Both the position numbers and the translations under genes were made by a program. 64,000 nucleotides of DNA from an uncultured Clostridia bacterium (GTDB lineage Bacteria > Bacillota > Clostridia > Lachnospirales > Lachnospiraceae): contig CAOKDX010000003.1 of assembly GCA_948467395.1 (NCBI GenBank), positions 62,001-126,000 of the forward strand. Reading direction: 5' to 3'. The first letter of the stretch is position 1; every line of letters begins with the position of its first letter. Shown here piece after piece: positions 5,133-55,870 of this stretch. The notes beneath the pieces were generated by a model. That model did no database searches, was not told the origin of the DNA, and saw only the letters and a program-made list of their open reading frames with translations.

Positions 5133-5753
5133 CTAGCCCACCCATTCATTCCCCCGGTATTCCTCTATGATAGCCCGGATACCCGCCCCATTTTCCAGCA
5201 GCTCCACCAGCATTTCCCTTGCCAGCTCAAACATCCGGAACAGCTCCCGTTTCCCCGGTGCATCCGAATATACCTTCCAGTATCCCGCATAAAGAGAATC
5301 CTTCCCCTTATGAAGGATAAATCCCCGCACATCTTCAATAGGATAGCCAAGAATCAGGCCAAGCTCGTGGGGAAATTCCCTGCCTCCGTCACGATATGCC
5401 CGATACCGCTCGCGAAAAACTGGTAATATGTTCTCCATCCGGGCAGGAACATAGTCCCTTCCGGAAAAAAACTCCCTCACCTCTTCCCGGTCCAGATAGA
5501 CAGAAAGCCTATGACTGTCGTACAGCAGTATGACAGCTCTCACCTCTGTCACATAGAGTACATAATAACAGATTCCACTCTCCCTTAATAAGTCATGGAT
5601 CCGCCCCAGATTCCCTCTGTGGATAATAAACAGGCTGGAGATCCTGAGCCCTACGATCAGCGGTGCACACTGTAGAACCATCTGGTTCTCAATTTTTCCT
5701 GTGTCCATTCTGCATATCATCTCCCGCACCTCCCCGCTTATTTTTGTACCCAT
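5133..5753 (-). CDS. DUF3793 family protein
   Basis: The product is 206 residues if translation starts at the methionine preceded by a perfect AGGAGG at 8 nt spacing. A longer frame to 5828 lacks such a signal. The C-terminal half contains HELGLILGYPIEDVRGFI, the characteristic block of DUF3793 proteins of Clostridia. It is soluble and acidic with no recognisable catalytic residues. The family often sits beside redox or flavodoxin genes elsewhere, but here the neighbours (GH3 glucosidase and L,D-transpeptidase) do not suggest a role. Function unknown. Confidence 0.7.
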   Translation of the reverse strand: MGTKISGEVREMICRMDTGKIENQMVLQCAPLIVGLRISSLFIIHRGNLGRIHDLLRESGICYYVLYVTEVRAVILLYDSHRLSVYLDREEVREFFSGRDYVPARMENILPVFRERYRAYRDGGREFPHELGLILGYPIEDVRGFILHKGKDSLYAGYWKVYSDAPGKRELFRMFELAREMLVELLENGAGIRAIIEEYRGNEWVG

Positions 5754-50260: not shown

Positions 50261-51787
50261 TTAAAATCTCTTAATTTTTTTCGCCGTTGTCTTGTCAAAT
50301 TCCACTTCTCTTACAATGAGACTATGAATGCGCTTATAGACCGGAGTATCCCTGTTGTACTCGTCAATGATCTCCTGCAGCGCCGCCCTGATGTCTCTGA
50401 TCCGCTTCTTCTTTGCATAATCAGAATCCGGGAAAATCTCGGCCTCAATGACCTGATCCTTCTCCCGCACCAGAACCTCCTTTACCAGATCCGCCCGGCT
50501 CAGCTGATTCTCAATCTCCTCCGGCGATACATTCTCGCCATTGGCAAGGATGATCAGATTTTTCCTTCTGCCGGTGATAAAGACGAAATTATCCTTATCC
50601 ACATATCCGAGATCGCCTGTCTTCAGCCATCCATCCTCCAGCGTCTCCTCTGTCTCCTCTGGCATTTTGTAATATCCCATCATCACACTGCTGCCCCGCA
50701 CCCAGAGTTCCTCATCTACCACCTTCGCCTCACAGTTGGGCATCAGCTTTCCCACCGAGCCCTTTTTATTGTCCCATGCAAGATTTGTACTGATCACAGG
50801 AGAACATTCGGTCATACCGTATCCCTGGAGGATCGTTATGCCGTACTCCGCAAACCGGTCCACATAGTCCGGATCCAGATAGGCGCCGCCGCTGCAGATC
50901 GTTTTCAGATTGCCGCCGAAGGCCGCCTTTGCCACCAGCTTCTTGGGCATCATCCCCCCTGCTGCCTTTAATTTGGCGTAGATGGATTCAATGACCAGCG
51001 GCACCAGCAGCACCATATCCGGCTTAAAAAGCTTCAGGTTTTTCTGGACATGCATAATGGAATCATTGATACAGGAGGTTACGCCGATAAACAGCCCCTT
51101 TATGATATCCATGGTTAAGCAGTATACATGATTGATGGGAAGCAGCGTCATCGTCACCGTCCCGGCCGGTATCCTCATATCAAGGCACACCGCATTATCC
51201 GTCAGATTCTGGTGGGACAGCATAACTCCTTTGCTCTTTCCCGTAGTACCGGATGTAAATAGGATGGTACAGAGCTGGTCCGGATCGATCGGAGTCTCAT
51301 ACTGTCCCATGTTCTCCCTTCGAAGTTCTTCCCAGGAAAGGATCTCCCCTTTTCCATTCTCCCCAGGGCGGGCAGTTTCTGCCTGAAAGGAAACGATATA
51401 ACGCACACCCGGACACTTTTCTGCCGCCATGGCCGCCACATCGGGACGAATCTCATCGTAGAACAGCATCTCCACATCGGCCCGGTCAAGCAGTTCACAG
51501 ACAGCGTCCGCCGGCAGCTGTGCATCAATGGGAACCGCCACACTGCCGCTGTTTGTGACACCGAAGAAGCTGACGATCCACTGATAGGTCGTCGTCCCCA
51601 GGATGGCAATATGTTTCCCCTTCATGGCAAGGCTTTCCACCATGCGGCTCACTGCCATGGAATCCTCTCCCACCTCCCGGTATGTCTTATCCACTACCTC
51701 TTTTTTTACTTTATAGCGGTACGCCGCCTGATCCGAATAGGCCGCCGCGCTGTGGCGTATCACATCCTGCAATGTATGAATTTCCAT
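50261..51787 (-). CDS. Acyl-adenylate-forming ligase of a small biosynthetic operon
   Basis: The 508-residue enzyme has all core motifs of the AMP-binding superfamily: ILFTSGTTGKSKGVMLSH, GYGMTECSPV, WLKTGDLGYVDKDN and the C-terminal lysine in TTAKKIKRF. It activates a carboxylic acid as the adenylate and passes it to a thiol. As the acyl carrier protein gene lies 15 nt upstream, the carrier's pantetheine arm is the likely acceptor rather than free CoA. It is the last gene of the five-gene operon. The acid substrate (fatty, aryl or amino acid) is unknown. Confidence 0.88.
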   Translation of the reverse strand: MEIHTLQDVIRHSAAAYSDQAAYRYKVKKEVVDKTYREVGEDSMAVSRMVESLAMKGKHIAILGTTTYQWIVSFFGVTNSGSVAVPIDAQLPADAVCELLDRADVEMLFYDEIRPDVAAMAAEKCPGVRYIVSFQAETARPGENGKGEILSWEELRRENMGQYETPIDPDQLCTILFTSGTTGKSKGVMLSHQNLTDNAVCLDMRIPAGTVTMTLLPINHVYCLTMDIIKGLFIGVTSCINDSIMHVQKNLKLFKPDMVLLVPLVIESIYAKLKAAGGMMPKKLVAKAAFGGNLKTICSGGAYLDPDYVDRFAEYGITILQGYGMTECSPVISTNLAWDNKKGSVGKLMPNCEAKVVDEELWVRGSSVMMGYYKMPEETEETLEDGWLKTGDLGYVDKDNFVFITGRRKNLIILANGENVSPEEIENQLSRADLVKEVLVREKDQVIEAEIFPDSDYAKKKRIRDIRAALQEIIDEYNRDTPVYKRIHSLIVREVEFDKTTAKKIKRF

Positions 51788-51802
51788 ATTCCTACCTCAC
51801 TT

Positions 51803-52030
51803 TTATTCCGCAAGGGATTCGATATATTCTATCGCATCCTTCACTGTCTTGACATTAACCACTTCCCGCTCTTCCACTTCAATGTCAAAACGATCCTCGA
51901 TCTCCCCAACCATACTCATAAAATCATAGGAATTAAATCCCAGATCTTCAATAAATCTTGAGTCCTCCGAAATCTGATCCGGCTGGACGTCCACATACTG
52001 ACAAATCATTTCTTTCAAATCTTCAAACAT
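51803..52030 (-). CDS. Acyl or peptidyl carrier protein
   Basis: The 75-residue acidic helical protein is the size of a carrier protein. The phosphopantetheine attachment serine is S34 in EDLGFNSYDFMSMVGE; the usual aspartate before it is asparagine here. It starts at the ATG preceded by AAGGAGG. A second, dedicated carrier beside a ligase and a condensation-type enzyme points to specialised metabolism, not fatty acid synthesis, whose genes are absent here. Confidence 0.9.
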   Translation of the reverse strand: MFEDLKEMICQYVDVQPDQISEDSRFIEDLGFNSYDFMSMVGEIEDRFDIEVEEREVVNVKTVKDAIEYIESLAE

Positions 52031-52049
52031 ACGATTCCTCCTTAACTTT

Positions 52050-53453
52050 CTATGACCACTCAATGATCTCCCCTATGGTACGGCTGCTATCCTCGATGCC
52101 CCTGAATATAAGCCGGCACAGGTAATAATATATCTCTTCCAGTTTCTCATGGGTGACAACCCCTGTCTGGTGCTCAAAACAGAACTCCATCTGTCCGTCG
52201 GGTTTGTGGCTCACCGTGAGATAAAGGGTGTGTGCCGCCGCACCGTTGGAATATCTCTTGACGTGGTACTGGATATCCCCCAGCTTGTCTAATCCCGGGC
52301 CGTCATATTTCATGGTCAGCGGCTGGTAGGTCAGCGAGAGCGGCTCATAGGTCTGTCCGTCCTTCAGCTTGTAATACTGTTTGCGGAAAGCATAATATTC
52401 CGACGGACTGTAATTGGCATGACGGAAATACTGATTCTGTGCATCCCGGATCTTACAAAGTCCCTCCAGGAAGGTATCGTCCCTGGAAATAATAGTGCGA
52501 AACGGAAAACAGTGAATACGGGATCCCCCGCACCGCTTCTCCAGCAGGGTGGCCCGTCTGGCTATGGTGGTCGTAATGGAGATATCGTCTACGTTGTTTT
52601 CCTTCTGCAGATAGGTCCGCAGCCCCATCAGCAGGATACATGTCATGGAGATATGGTTTTCCTCACAGAACTTCTGCAGCTTCTCTGCTGCCCCTTCCTC
52701 CAGATAGAAGTTGCTGAGGTTCGCATCCACATTGTCTGAGACATTGGTGGCAGCCCGCAGCTTCGGATTCTTCGTCTCCTTCCGCTCCTTCTCCAGCTTT
52801 CCCGGACCATAGATATCAGTAAAGATAGGTTCGGAAGAGGATATCAGCTTCTCAAAAAATTCCCTGTCCTTCTTTGACGCCCTGCTGCCCGCCTCATATT
52901 CCAGATCCTTCTGGAGCTGCTTTAAATAGGACGCCATCTCCTTTGGATAGCTGATTTCCTCATATACCTTGCTGCAATACAGCTCGATGATGTCCTTGAA
53001 AAACGCCACCAGCGACTGGGCATCCATAATCAGATGGTTCACTTTGATATAGATGCCCTGAAACCCATCCGGCATCTTGATCATCACGATCTGATGCTGC
53101 GGGGTATCGTACATATCAAAAGGAATATTCGTCCACTCTGTCAGCTTATCGTCCGAATGCTCCTCCTTCCATCCGGTAAAATCAAAATGCTCGATCTCTT
53201 TCGTCTCTTCCTTCACCACATACTGATAGACATTTCCCTCCTTGTCCTCAGCAAATCTCACCCTCATGGATTCGCAACGGGCAACGGCCTCACGGATTGA
53301 CTGGCGCAGTATATCCCAGTCCAGATCTACCTGGATGGTCAGGCCGGAGCCAATATTGAGCACCTGTTTCTTCGGACAGTATTTCATACAATAGTAATGC
53401 AGTTTTTGTGCCGCTGTCAGCGGATATACCTTGTAACCTTTTCTTGTCTTCAT
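52050..53453 (-). CDS. Stand-alone condensation-domain acyltransferase
   Basis: The 467-residue protein has the fold pattern of NRPS condensation domains and related acyltransferases. It begins with the PLTAAQKLHYYC entry motif and carries the active-site block KVNHLIMDAQS. That is a variant of HHxxxDG, with N139 for the first histidine and A145 for glycine, but the catalytic H140 and D144 are kept. Later matches include SMTCILLMGLRTYLQ and FPFRTIISRDD. It would join a carrier-bound acyl group to an amine or alcohol. It lies 6 nt from the hydrolase gene and 19 nt from the carrier gene. Confidence 0.82.
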   Translation of the reverse strand: MKTRKGYKVYPLTAAQKLHYYCMKYCPKKQVLNIGSGLTIQVDLDWDILRQSIREAVARCESMRVRFAEDKEGNVYQYVVKEETKEIEHFDFTGWKEEHSDDKLTEWTNIPFDMYDTPQHQIVMIKMPDGFQGIYIKVNHLIMDAQSLVAFFKDIIELYCSKVYEEISYPKEMASYLKQLQKDLEYEAGSRASKKDREFFEKLISSSEPIFTDIYGPGKLEKERKETKNPKLRAATNVSDNVDANLSNFYLEEGAAEKLQKFCEENHISMTCILLMGLRTYLQKENNVDDISITTTIARRATLLEKRCGGSRIHCFPFRTIISRDDTFLEGLCKIRDAQNQYFRHANYSPSEYYAFRKQYYKLKDGQTYEPLSLTYQPLTMKYDGPGLDKLGDIQYHVKRYSNGAAAHTLYLTVSHKPDGQMEFCFEHQTGVVTHEKLEEIYYYLCRLIFRGIEDSSRTIGEIIEWS

Positions 53454-53459
53454 TCTGAA

Positions 53460-54407
53460 TCACTTCCCTTCTATAATAGGAAAAATAAAAGAACGGACTG
53501 CTTCTTCATACTCTTCCGGATCTCTGTAACAGGACTCCACATGTCCCGCCCCCTCTATGATCACCAGTTTCTTCTCCGACCGGCAGGCATTGTATAACTC
53601 ATGCGCCATGGAACAAGGGACAAAGGTATCTGCATCCCCATGGATAAACAGTACCGGGATCTTCGTCTTTGCCACCTCTTCCCTGGCATTGCATTCATCC
53701 AGCTCATAGCCCGCCTGTTTTTTCACCATCTGATTTGCAATCTGCATGATAGGAAAGGCCGGAAGGTGATACATATTTTTCAGCACCGCACAGAACACAT
53801 CCCATGCCGAGGTAAACGCACAGTCCGACACCGCCGCCTTCACCTGTTCCGGCAGCTCTAACCCCAGGGTCATAAGCACCGCAGCCGCACCCATGGAGTC
53901 GCCGTGAAGAAGGATACGGCAGTCCTCTCCCAGCCGTTCCACTACATAATCAATCCATATTCTGGCATCGTGCCGGTCCAGGCATCCAAACCCAATGTAG
54001 GTGCCCTCACTTTTTCCATGGGCGCGCTCATCCACAATAAGAAGATTGTACCCCTCATCCAGATAAAATCTGGCAAGGGTAGAATAATCATTCTGTCCCT
54101 CACTGGTATAACCGTGAAAACAGATGACTGTCTTCAGGGAGCCGTCACACGGAAAGAACCGGCCATACAGTCTGAGACCGTCCTCCGATGTGACCCATAC
54201 CTCCTCGGAGGGCTGTTCATTCAGCCATTCCTTGGCGGCACGGATATCCGGAATATATAAATCCCAGTCCGTCCCCGCCATCTTCTGTGTCCTATCCCTC
54301 TTCGCATTGGAACGAATCATTGTCCTGCGAAAAAAATATCTGGCAATGGCATATTCACCGGCCGCCCCCAGTATGGCAGCCCCTGCGATCCATTTTCCCG
54401 CGTTCAT
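53460..54407 (-). CDS. Membrane-associated alpha/beta hydrolase
   Basis: The 315-residue enzyme has a hydrophobic N-terminal helix (about residues 6-27) that may tether it to the membrane. The triad is intact: S171 in LLHGDSMGAAAV, D260 in FIHGDADTFVP and H289 in GAGHVES. The oxyanion motif is FHGYTSEG. In this operon it may act as a thioesterase or esterase that frees or trims the product. It is otherwise a general hydrolase, and its substrate cannot be stated. Confidence 0.85.
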   Translation of the reverse strand: MNAGKWIAGAAILGAAGEYAIARYFFRRTMIRSNAKRDRTQKMAGTDWDLYIPDIRAAKEWLNEQPSEEVWVTSEDGLRLYGRFFPCDGSLKTVICFHGYTSEGQNDYSTLARFYLDEGYNLLIVDERAHGKSEGTYIGFGCLDRHDARIWIDYVVERLGEDCRILLHGDSMGAAAVLMTLGLELPEQVKAAVSDCAFTSAWDVFCAVLKNMYHLPAFPIMQIANQMVKKQAGYELDECNAREEVAKTKIPVLFIHGDADTFVPCSMAHELYNACRSEKKLVIIEGAGHVESCYRDPEEYEEAVRSFIFPIIEGK

Positions 54408-54430
54408 CCTTACCTCCTTCCCATCCGTCT

Positions 54431-54754
54431 TTATTTCTTTACGAATTCCTTCAGTCTCAGTGCCTTCTCAATGCTTCCCTCAACCTTCAGCTTGCCCAGT
54501 GTAAAGGCCAGGACCGGATCCAGTTTCCCGGAAATAATCTTAAAGAGTACATCCGCGCTGCAGATAAAAAGAGAATCCCGGTCAAAATACTCATAGGGCT
54601 GGATATCCAGCTTTCCATCCTTTACCTCAGCATAAAAGGCGCCTTCCCCTTCTCCGGTAATATTGAACTGATAGGCGAGATGTTCCTGGATCATGCTCAC
54701 ATCCGCCCCGCTGAAAAGTTCCCTTACCTTTTCTACGATTTCTTCATAAGTCAT
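54431..54754 (-). CDS. SCP2 sterol-binding domain protein
   Basis: The 107-residue protein is a single SCP2 domain, recognised from the beta-sheet core (FYAEVKDGKLDIQPYEYFDR) and the closing LGKLKVEGSIEKALRL block. SCP2 domains hold lipids or long acyl chains in a hydrophobic tunnel. It is the first gene of the MarR-controlled operon, with GAGGAGG before the ATG. Its presence suggests that the substrate or product of the pathway is hydrophobic (inference). Confidence 0.85.
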   Translation of the reverse strand: MTYEEIVEKVRELFSGADVSMIQEHLAYQFNITGEGEGAFYAEVKDGKLDIQPYEYFDRDSLFICSADVLFKIISGKLDPVLAFTLGKLKVEGSIEKALRLKEFVKK

Positions 54755-54828
54755 TGTCTGTTTCCTCCTCACAAATTGATATGGTCAGGTAAATCAATAT
54801 CCCCCCATGCCTGTCAAGGCTCAAATAT

Positions 54829-54909
54829 TTCGCATTACGAACTAATAAATGAAAAAAATTCGTATTACGAAATAATTATACCAGACTACCTTATATTTCG
54901 CAATACGAA
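54829..54909 (-). promoter_or_regulatory. Promoter with three MarR-type operators
   Basis: Three near-identical 13-bp palindromes of form TTCGYAWTACGAA lie at 54829-54841, 54859-54871 and 54897-54909. On the minus strand TTGCGA (54898-54903), 17 bp, TATAAT (54875-54880) gives the promoter of the SCP2 operon. One palindrome covers the -35 element, one begins 4 bp past the -10 and covers the start point, and one lies in the leader. The adjacent MarR protein is the obvious ligand, acting as repressor. Confidence 0.88.
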
Positions 54910-55357: not shown

Positions 55358-55870
55358 TTATGACAGCCGTTCCGCCGGTTTCTCAACAATATTCGGACAC
55401 TTGCTGTACATGGCATCCACCATTTTGTCGTTGGGCTCAAACAGGATTACAACCTTCTCTCCCTGATCCGAAATCCGGGTTGCTATACCGTACACCCTGG
55501 CGTCCGAACGAAGGGAGGTATAATCCATCGTTTTCACATGGCGGTATCCATCCATCCGGGAAGAACTCATGGGAGCGATCACATCCGCATTTTCAATCTC
55601 AATGCGAAGCTTATGCTTTCTCCTCTCCCCACCCTGGATTATGTCAAAGTCCAGCTGTCCGTCGCAGAATACATATTCCCACTCCTCCTTAAACCGGGGC
55701 CAGTACCAGAACAGGAATACCGCCGCCGCCAGTCCAAATATCAGAAGAAAACGGCTGAACATCGTGGTCATGAGAAGAAGGATAACTCCAATGACCGCTG
55801 CAATTTTAATCGCAACAACTTTTACTGTTGTTCTTTTCCTGGCATTTGCTTCTACATAAGATTGTTCCAT
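55358..55870 (-). CDS. Membrane protein of unknown function (DUF6106-like?)
   Basis: The 170-residue protein has two adjacent membrane helices (about residues 17-36 and 40-57). A cytoplasmic beta-rich domain of about 110 residues follows, with EYVFCDGQLDFDIIQGGERR and VVILFEPNDKMVDAM. The layout resembles bacterial PH-like or YcxB-type proteins and Lachnospiraceae DUF6106. GAGG precedes the ATG. It is coupled to the MarR gene (TAATG overlap). Its role in the adjacent pathway is unclear. Confidence 0.6.
   Translation of the reverse strand: MEQSYVEANARKRTTVKVVAIKIAAVIGVILLLMTTMFSRFLLIFGLAAAVFLFWYWPRFKEEWEYVFCDGQLDFDIIQGGERRKHKLRIEIENADVIAPMSSSRMDGYRHVKTMDYTSLRSDARVYGIATRISDQGEKVVILFEPNDKMVDAMYSKCPNIVEKPAERLS

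Follow-up and report, generated by a model that had tools for sequence, protein, structure and literature searches.

What do five closely spaced genes behind a MarR-family regulator make in an uncultured member of the Lachnospiraceae, and are they new to biochemistry? They lie on the minus strand of the window, by which we mean the whole stretch of 64,000 nucleotides (nt) analyzed here (GenBank assembly GCA_948467395.1, contig CAOKDX010000003.1, positions 62,001 to 126,000), and encode an SCP2 lipid carrier, an alpha/beta hydrolase (ABH), a free-standing condensation enzyme (C), an acyl carrier protein (T), and an acyl-adenylate ligase (A). The original prediction took them for a dissected nonribosomal peptide synthetase (NRPS) or lipid-conjugation module and for a candidate undescribed system. 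By family, gene order, and tree position, we assign the C-T-A core to the fatty acid amide (FAA) or "CTA" acyl-amine systems of gut Clostridia, and we consider it very probable that these three proteins form a fatty-acid-amide synthase. What is new here, judging from the loci compared, is the extended SCP2-ABH-C-T-A anatomy, the usual order in the window's clade.

Family of the condensation enzyme and the C-T-A core

When C was searched against the Protein Data Bank (PDB) with phmmer, its best match was 12KH (E = 8.7e-95, residues 8 to 465), with the runner-up at 1.2e-6. The entry 12KH is OaaC of Coprococcus eutactus (PMC13142362), described there as a free-standing condensation enzyme which, with OaaA and OaaACP, yields fatty acid amides in vitro. 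The two enzymes are 36% identical and align end to end, with no gap around OaaC residues 214 to 224, which the same paper presents as an extra, helix-containing stretch typical of the FAA family; this stretch appears to be present in the window's C. Condensation was the sole family that a Pfam scan found on C, with neither an acceptor carrier domain nor a thioesterase domain.

The catalytic motif NHLIMDA, confirmed at 53039-53019, had been flagged as an anomaly against HHxxxDG, a view that the family does not bear out. Among 127 FAA condensation domains in PMC13142362, the second His is kept in >99%, and the residue after the Asp is Ser in 42%, Ala in 36%, and Gly in 17%. Ala holds this position in all window-type loci aligned (those whose C is at least 52% identical to the window's), and the second His and the Asp (His140 and Asp144) are kept in 18 of 18 aligned sequences. 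The initial Asn is off the stated Asp or His and recurs in loci L039, L046, L052, L054, L058, and L080 of our comparison set. NHLIMDA thus reads as an ordinary motif of an FAA member, with a less usual first residue. The window lacks the multidomain protein with HHxxxDG that marks a canonical NRPS and has free-standing genes in C-T-A order, as FAA and CTA systems do. The other catalytic residues that had been reported were likewise found: the carrier serine is intact within DLGFNS, and so are the ligase motifs FTSGTTGKSKG, GYGMTE, TGDL, and a C-terminal KKIKR. The ligase's best NCBIfam match is a long-chain-fatty-acid-CoA ligase subfamily, at 256.6 bits versus a cut-off of 476.

A maximum-likelihood tree of C was built from 51 rows, 48 of them FAA-type sequences (more than about 22% apart) and three of them NRPS condensation domains from the window's own genome. 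The window and OaaC share one side of a branch with support of 100/99, and the three own-genome domains, which are the only outgroup and sit on very long branches, share the other. On the FAA-type side, OaaC and the window fall into two separate groups, with the window's clade as the sister of OaaC; support for the window's group is 93/74 with the deepest row and 96/89 without it. The same genome (G000) carries an ordinary NRPS with a 3402-amino-acid (aa) open frame on contig C13 (34871-48244), with a phosphopantetheinyl transferase (PPTase) gene a few kb beyond. Locus L080 (8757-12098) encodes a very divergent C in the order C-A-T, with a PPTase-type open reading frame (ORF) directly downstream, and may represent a third and deeper branch of the FAA condensation family.

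The description of the CTA operon reportedly goes back to Chang et al. 2021. Also listed among the traits of FAA/CTA systems is that C forms a homodimer and that holo- or acyl-T opens it. As for products, the OaaA-OaaACP-OaaC system is reported to yield oleoyl aminovaleric acid (PMC13142362), and the Eubacterium rectale FAA cluster of Chang et al. 2021 is credited with lauroyl tryptamine in PMC11561910 and with OEA in the review PMC11979265. In PMC13060934, the operon was called where C and A reached ≥70% identity to the corresponding proteins in the catalog of Chang et al., and it is reported from 36 species, every one a member of the Lachnospiraceae. Two Blautia species and a Coprococcus catus isolate that carry it made more of the acyl amines OEA, PEA, and LEA than noncarriers did, both Blautia carriers made oleoyl dopamine when fed, and amines rescued Blautia wexlerae from fatty acids, for which detoxification was proposed.

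The window resembles the OaaC system in its free-standing A, T, and C, its lack of an acceptor carrier, and its xHxxxD(S/A) motif, and it resembles the CTA operon of B. wexlerae and other Lachnospiraceae in having the genes C, T, and A in that order. Unlike the OaaC system, it falls in the sister clade, has Ala for Ser, and adds SCP2, ABH, and MarR. The CTA operon of PMC13060934 likewise differs in comprising three genes, and the main text of that paper is without words that begin with "sterol," "hydrolase," "regulator," or "TetR." For C-T-A, then, homologs in the same order are already tied to a known product, and the claim of an undescribed system gives way to a published FAA/CTA acyl-amine operon (PMC13142362 and PMC13060934, as far as these sources describe it).

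Conservation and distribution of the extended operon

ORFs and Pfam families were checked for each gene, and every ORF was present at its place in the minus-strand order MarR, SCP2, ABH, C, T, A. The gaps are 23 nt (SCP2-ABH), 6 nt (ABH-C), 19 nt (C-T), and 15 nt (T-A), so that coordinates and Pfam both agree with the five packed genes, 6 to 23 nt apart, that had been reported downstream of MarR. The Pfam E values are 1.9e-12 for SCP2 (PF02036), 1e-17 for ABH (Hydrolase_4, PF12146), 3.1e-42 for C (PF00668), 1e-12 for the carrier (PF00550), 4.3e-66 for the ligase (PF00501), and 2.8e-10 for MarR (MarR_2, PF12802).

Across 299 genomes drawn evenly from the family, C was matched (at E 1e-20 or better) in 43. 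In 29 of these the match was of window type, a count that includes the window's own genome and one partial locus (genome G237); 13 had matches only at 32-38% identity, and one had a 28% match inside a 1428-aa frame. ABH and A stand beside C in all 29 window-type loci, T in 28 (it is missing from L076), and SCP2 in 27 (it is missing from L050 and L064). The 14 OaaC-type loci, with the outlier L080 included, differ from the window type in having SCP2 nearby in none; ABH is near C in 5 of the 14 (in L071 on the opposite strand), and T and A are present in 12. In the partial locus L076, C is shortened to 299 aa and a carrier gene was not found, which suggests decay or misassembly. The genome of L050 (G022) has the operon without SCP2, yet carries an SCP2 gene elsewhere, near a contig start (L183). 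In L077 and L078, OaaC-like C genes were found without carrier or ligase within the 18 kb fetched, suggesting orphan enzymes or split systems; the genome of L078 also carries a window-type operon.

The original prediction had proposed a search for conserved order of the five proteins, and the best 80 of at least 560 named-genome relatives, several of them the same genomes as in the family sample, provide it: the strict SCP2-ABH-C-T-A order occurs in 60 of the 80, ABH in 80 (counting copies truncated at a contig end), and SCP2 in 65. Of the remaining 15, four are interrupted by a contig end and 11 are without detectable SCP2. Most of the window's named relatives are Lachnospiraceae. Relative to L082, the closest relative found (97% identical at C), the ratios of nonsynonymous to synonymous substitution rates (dN/dS) are 0.064 for A, 0.068 for T, 0.025 for C, 0.055 for ABH, 0.039 for SCP2, and 0.017 for MarR. 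Because the same order recurs in 60 of the 80 best relatives and dN/dS is this low for all six genes, the five-gene set is far beyond chance.

Pairwise distances of the other genes track those of C (r = 0.87 for T, 0.87 for ABH, 0.83 for A, and 0.69 for SCP2; 0 of 999 permutations each), as computed from 68 loci left after near-identical ones were dropped from the 90 with all five genes. Because this test includes common descent, the correlation points to joint inheritance and not to interaction. ABH matches of ≥53% identity occur in 29 of the 299 genomes, exactly the carriers of window-type C, and lie beside C; other ABH matches, at ≤47%, come from 85 additional genomes and from extra copies. 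SCP2 is more loosely attached: it occurs in 68 of the 299 genomes at 77 places, 27 of these in the operon, and several genomes without C have it at 60-70% identity. SCP2 is not essential, since it is undetected in 11 of the 80 loci and present in genomes that lack C.

To look beyond the operon, 16 stretches were taken from the 50 places where SCP2 stands outside it. In L174 and L176 the divergent neighbor tested is a TetR gene; two nonregulator neighbors of such stray SCP2 genes are a glycosidase and a papain-type protease, which give no functional hint. An eroded operon is seen in L182 (5951-6849), where SCP2 precedes a 158-aa ligase remnant and lies beside a 205-aa divergent gene. In a set of 392 genomes spanning the order, the C family reaches E 1e-40 or better in 33, of which three belong to a different family. 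Among genomes of the window's genus, the sole C of G594 is of OaaC type (37%), and G108 lacks C but retains SCP2 at 70%. This patchy distribution suggests a trait gained and lost. There was no sign of plasmid carriage: 51 plasmid records match C, all below 60% identity, and the 20 listed are 18-23% identical and NRPS type where annotated, the best (H1) having no annotated gene beneath the match. PADLOC returned no defense-system match for A, C, ABH, or SCP2.

Regulator, operators, and a lost transferase gene

The notion that a regulator probably controls the module is well served by the gap between MarR and SCP2. The pattern TTCGNANTACGAA has 3 exact palindromic sites in the 2.99-Mb genome, all in this gap (at 54829, 54859, and 54897), and the reversed control pattern has 0 sites in the same 2.99 Mb. 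In order from SCP2 toward MarR, the sites read TTCGCATTACGAA (O1), TTCGTATTACGAA (O2), and TTCGCAATACGAA (O3) (Table 1), and the original prediction's end point, 54909, coincides with the end of the third. Palindromic sites overlapping a promoter are a trait of MarR-repressed operons, and the three exact sites display it about a putative promoter. The region has 14 promoter-like sites versus 7.8 in shuffles. The three putative operators are what a dedicated local repressor would leave. The earlier picture of a dissected, NRPS-like lipid-conjugation module is supported.

Table 1. Features of the operon and its control region, in window coordinates
Feature	Position	Strand	Basis or remark
Acyl-adenylate ligase (A), 508 aa	50261..51787	-	PF00501 and ligase motifs
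Acyl carrier protein (T), 75 aa, phosphopantetheine site DLGFNS	51803..52030	-	PF00550
Free-standing condensation enzyme (C), FAA family, 467 aa	52050..53453	-	PF00668; 12KH
Catalytic motif NHLIMDA of C	53019..53039	-	H140 and D144 invariant in 18 aligned
Alpha/beta hydrolase (ABH), 315 aa	53460..54407	-	Hydrolase_4 PF12146
SCP2 lipid-carrier protein, 107 aa	54431..54754	-	PF02036; 1C44
PPTase scar, the gene's first and last bases only	54770..54797	-	Comparison with L082
Putative operator O1	54829..54841		Two differences in L082
Putative operator O2, directly downstream of -10 box	54859..54871		Identical in L082
Promoter-like TTGCGA-17-TATAAT, TG before -10	54875..54903	-	Consensus match 10/12; putative
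Putative operator O3, overlapping -35 box	54897..54909		Identical in L082
MarR-family regulator, 145 aa	54921..55358	-	PF12802 / PF01047

Regulators were surveyed in 124 loci, made up of 44 that include the window and the best 80 named relatives, with some genomes entering twice. A TetR-type ORF lies ≤3 kb upstream of C in 79 of the 124 and is divergent in 78 of those 79; L064 has a MarR and L043 a MerR. The MerR-family gene of L043 (11431-11841; Robinsoniella peoriensis, same contig as L108) occupies the usual TetR/MarR place. Regulators have been exchanged, and the pathway has persisted.

Comparison with L082 also points to a loss in the window. In L082 a whole Sfp-type PPTase gene (5142-5708, 188 aa) lies between MarR and SCP2; only its two ends remain in the window, which has lost the gene. 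PPTase-type ORFs stand directly upstream of SCP2 in Hungatella hathewayi (L041 and L102, one genome), Clostridium sp. 1001271st1 (L083), Eubacterium sp. RGIG8980 (L085), and [Clostridium] clostridioforme (L086), with the Pfam family ACPS confirmed for L086 and L102. A neighboring PPTase fits a carrier that must be activated, and the window's genome has two other PPTases. We put the start of SCP2 most likely at ATG 54754 and not at GTG 54772, because an AGGAGG site is present there and relatives align there. Beyond MarR, a 170-aa protein with a sub-threshold DUF6106 match (55358-55870) overlaps the MarR start with its end, and the two are possibly translationally coupled.

Proposed pathway and its alternatives

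ABH residues S171, D260, and H289 are invariant in 24 of 24 aligned sequences, four of which accompany OaaC-type enzymes and are 28-30% identical. The N-terminus of ABH shows weak hydrophobicity (1.10, Kyte-Doolittle), with basic residues after it, and the charge after the N-terminal stretch is more positive than before it in 21 of the 24; by the positive-inside rule for membrane anchors, an ABH anchored at the inner membrane face is plausible, no more. The best solved relative of ABH is the esterase 5G59 (E = 4.3e-16), and monoglyceride lipases match at 1.3e-6 and weaker, among many other esterases; its Pfam and NCBIfam matches include no thioesterase families. SCP2 matches the SCP2 structure 1C44 (E = 1.3e-5).

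The pathway that we propose joins what this analysis contributes (gene set, C family, presence of the catalytic residues, order, co-divergence, purifying selection, and operator sites unique to this promoter) to C-T-A chemistry in relatives and detoxification, both taken from the papers cited above; the amine, the MarR ligand and its binding, and the tasks of SCP2 and ABH we infer. A would adenylate a free long-chain fatty acid and load it onto the phosphopantetheine arm of T, and C would move the acyl group from acyl-T onto a small free amine. The finished N-acyl amide would then diffuse off C, with no thioesterase needed. The prediction that the product is a hydrophobic acyl conjugate probably holds, in the form of an acyl amide; its release by the hydrolase is not supported, because the acceptor would be a free amine and nothing would stay bound (a step deduced from the chemistry described in PMC13142362). 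ABH, probably at the inner membrane face, may release fatty acid from an acyl lipid and so supply A, SCP2 may carry fatty acid or amide between membrane and enzymes, and a fatty acid or related ligand may release MarR from the three operators, turning the operon on. The benefit would be that toxic free fatty acids are capped, as products that resemble host signaling lipids. Whether ABH is the fatty-acid supplier we consider evenly balanced. The pathway as a whole, in which ABH strips membrane, dietary, or host lipids, SCP2 ferries, C-T-A caps with a gut amine, and a lipid-sensing regulator opens the operon, is offered tentatively, as something we would sooner doubt than accept.

A possible parallel comes from Blautia hominis HA2291, in which PMC13029680 describes a cholesterol-responsive SCP2-like protein, RS03310, with the condensation protein RS03300 as its partner. 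As in the window type, SCP2 goes with a condensation protein, and their locus tags are two apart, the spacing expected from SCP2-ABH-C. Locus tags usually step by five, so that one gene fits between RS03310 and RS03300, as ABH does here, and by this analogy the pair probably belongs to the same operon as the window type. The pair is also raised by lipid; unlike our proposal, the passages concerned read it as cholesterol oxidation and are without ligase, carrier, or acyl amine (PMC13029680). In the literature searched, with most subscription journals outside the search, no paper joined SCP2 or ABH to acyl-amine synthesis, and PMC13029680, with its condensation protein, gave the only link found; such silence is weak evidence of absence.

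The B. hominis work raises the alternative of a multienzyme sterol-modifying pathway in which SCP2 binds and oxidizes cholesterol and C acts alongside. The match of the window's SCP2 to 1C44 would suit it, but its partners here are an acyl ligase, a carrier, and an FAA-type C, no redox family appeared in any of these (Pfam scan, plus the PDB search of C), the SCP2 protein has only its SCP2 domain and is dispensable, and the activity in PMC13029680 is described as coming from refolded protein; we regard this alternative as very unlikely. We give a slightly better, still small, chance to C-T-A making some other acyl product, an ester or the amide of an aryl, hydroxy, or steroid acid. The ligase family is broad and its best NCBIfam match far under the cut-off, C is distant from OaaC, and SCP2 could deliver nonfatty lipids; against this, family members with described chemistry use fatty acids and amines (PMC13142362, PMC13060934), and no result here points to changed chemistry. 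That the genes are a decayed fragment of an ordinary NRPS is hardly credible, even though C, T, and A are NRPS-type domains and the first motif residue is not His: the catalytic residues are kept, the own-genome NRPS condensation domains lie far off in the tree, dN/dS is 0.02-0.07 across six genes, and window-type C occurs in 29 of 299 genomes. A degenerate NRPS was rejected on tree position, dN/dS, and this spread.

A variant that keeps the same C-T-A chemistry would have ABH edit or undo it, as an amidase recycling the acyl amine or as a type II thioesterase clearing T. The ABH family is generic, its first Pfam match being Hydrolase_4 ("serine aminopeptidase, S33") and its best solved relative an esterase, and type II thioesterases accompany many NRPSs. 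The lack of thioesterase families among its matches counts against this variant, and the weak membrane-side N-terminus and the monoglyceride lipase matches would fit a lipid ester, none of which is decisive; we hold an editing role to be possible, if somewhat doubtful. Returning to fatty-acid-amide synthesis with ABH as supplier, several observations weigh against it. The motif starts with Asn, neither Asp nor His. C is only 36% identical to OaaC and its clade has Ala for Ser after the Asp, because of which donor and amine may differ from those of OaaC. ABH is near only 5 of the 14 OaaC-type loci, once on the other strand, and its N-terminal hydrophobicity is weak; SCP2 is undetected beside ABH in 11 of the best 80 named loci and exists in genomes without C. 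Finally, with two mismatches allowed, TTCGNANTACGAA has 10 matches in the window versus 3.7 expected, and 3 of 100 shuffles reach 10, which leaves the exact operator sites to carry the weight.

Two preprints on acyl-amine synthesis, PMC13060934 and PMC13142362, present it as the work of three proteins. Within the clade of the window, ABH is conserved to the same degree as the core enzymes, and the lipid carrier nearly so, which suggests that a fatty-acid source and control are probably built in. Microbial acyl amines are reported to act on host G protein-coupled receptors, GPR119 and GPR183 among them (PMC13142362, PMC13060934, PMC11561910), and ABH, SCP2, the regulator, and its operator are defined targets for studies of when gut bacteria produce these lipids. 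The operon also connects the acyl-amine work with the report on SCP2 and cholesterol in Blautia: if our reading is true, the cholesterol-responsive SCP2 gene of B. hominis would head an acyl-amide operon, and its response to lipid would be the inducing signal for the production of host-active lipids.

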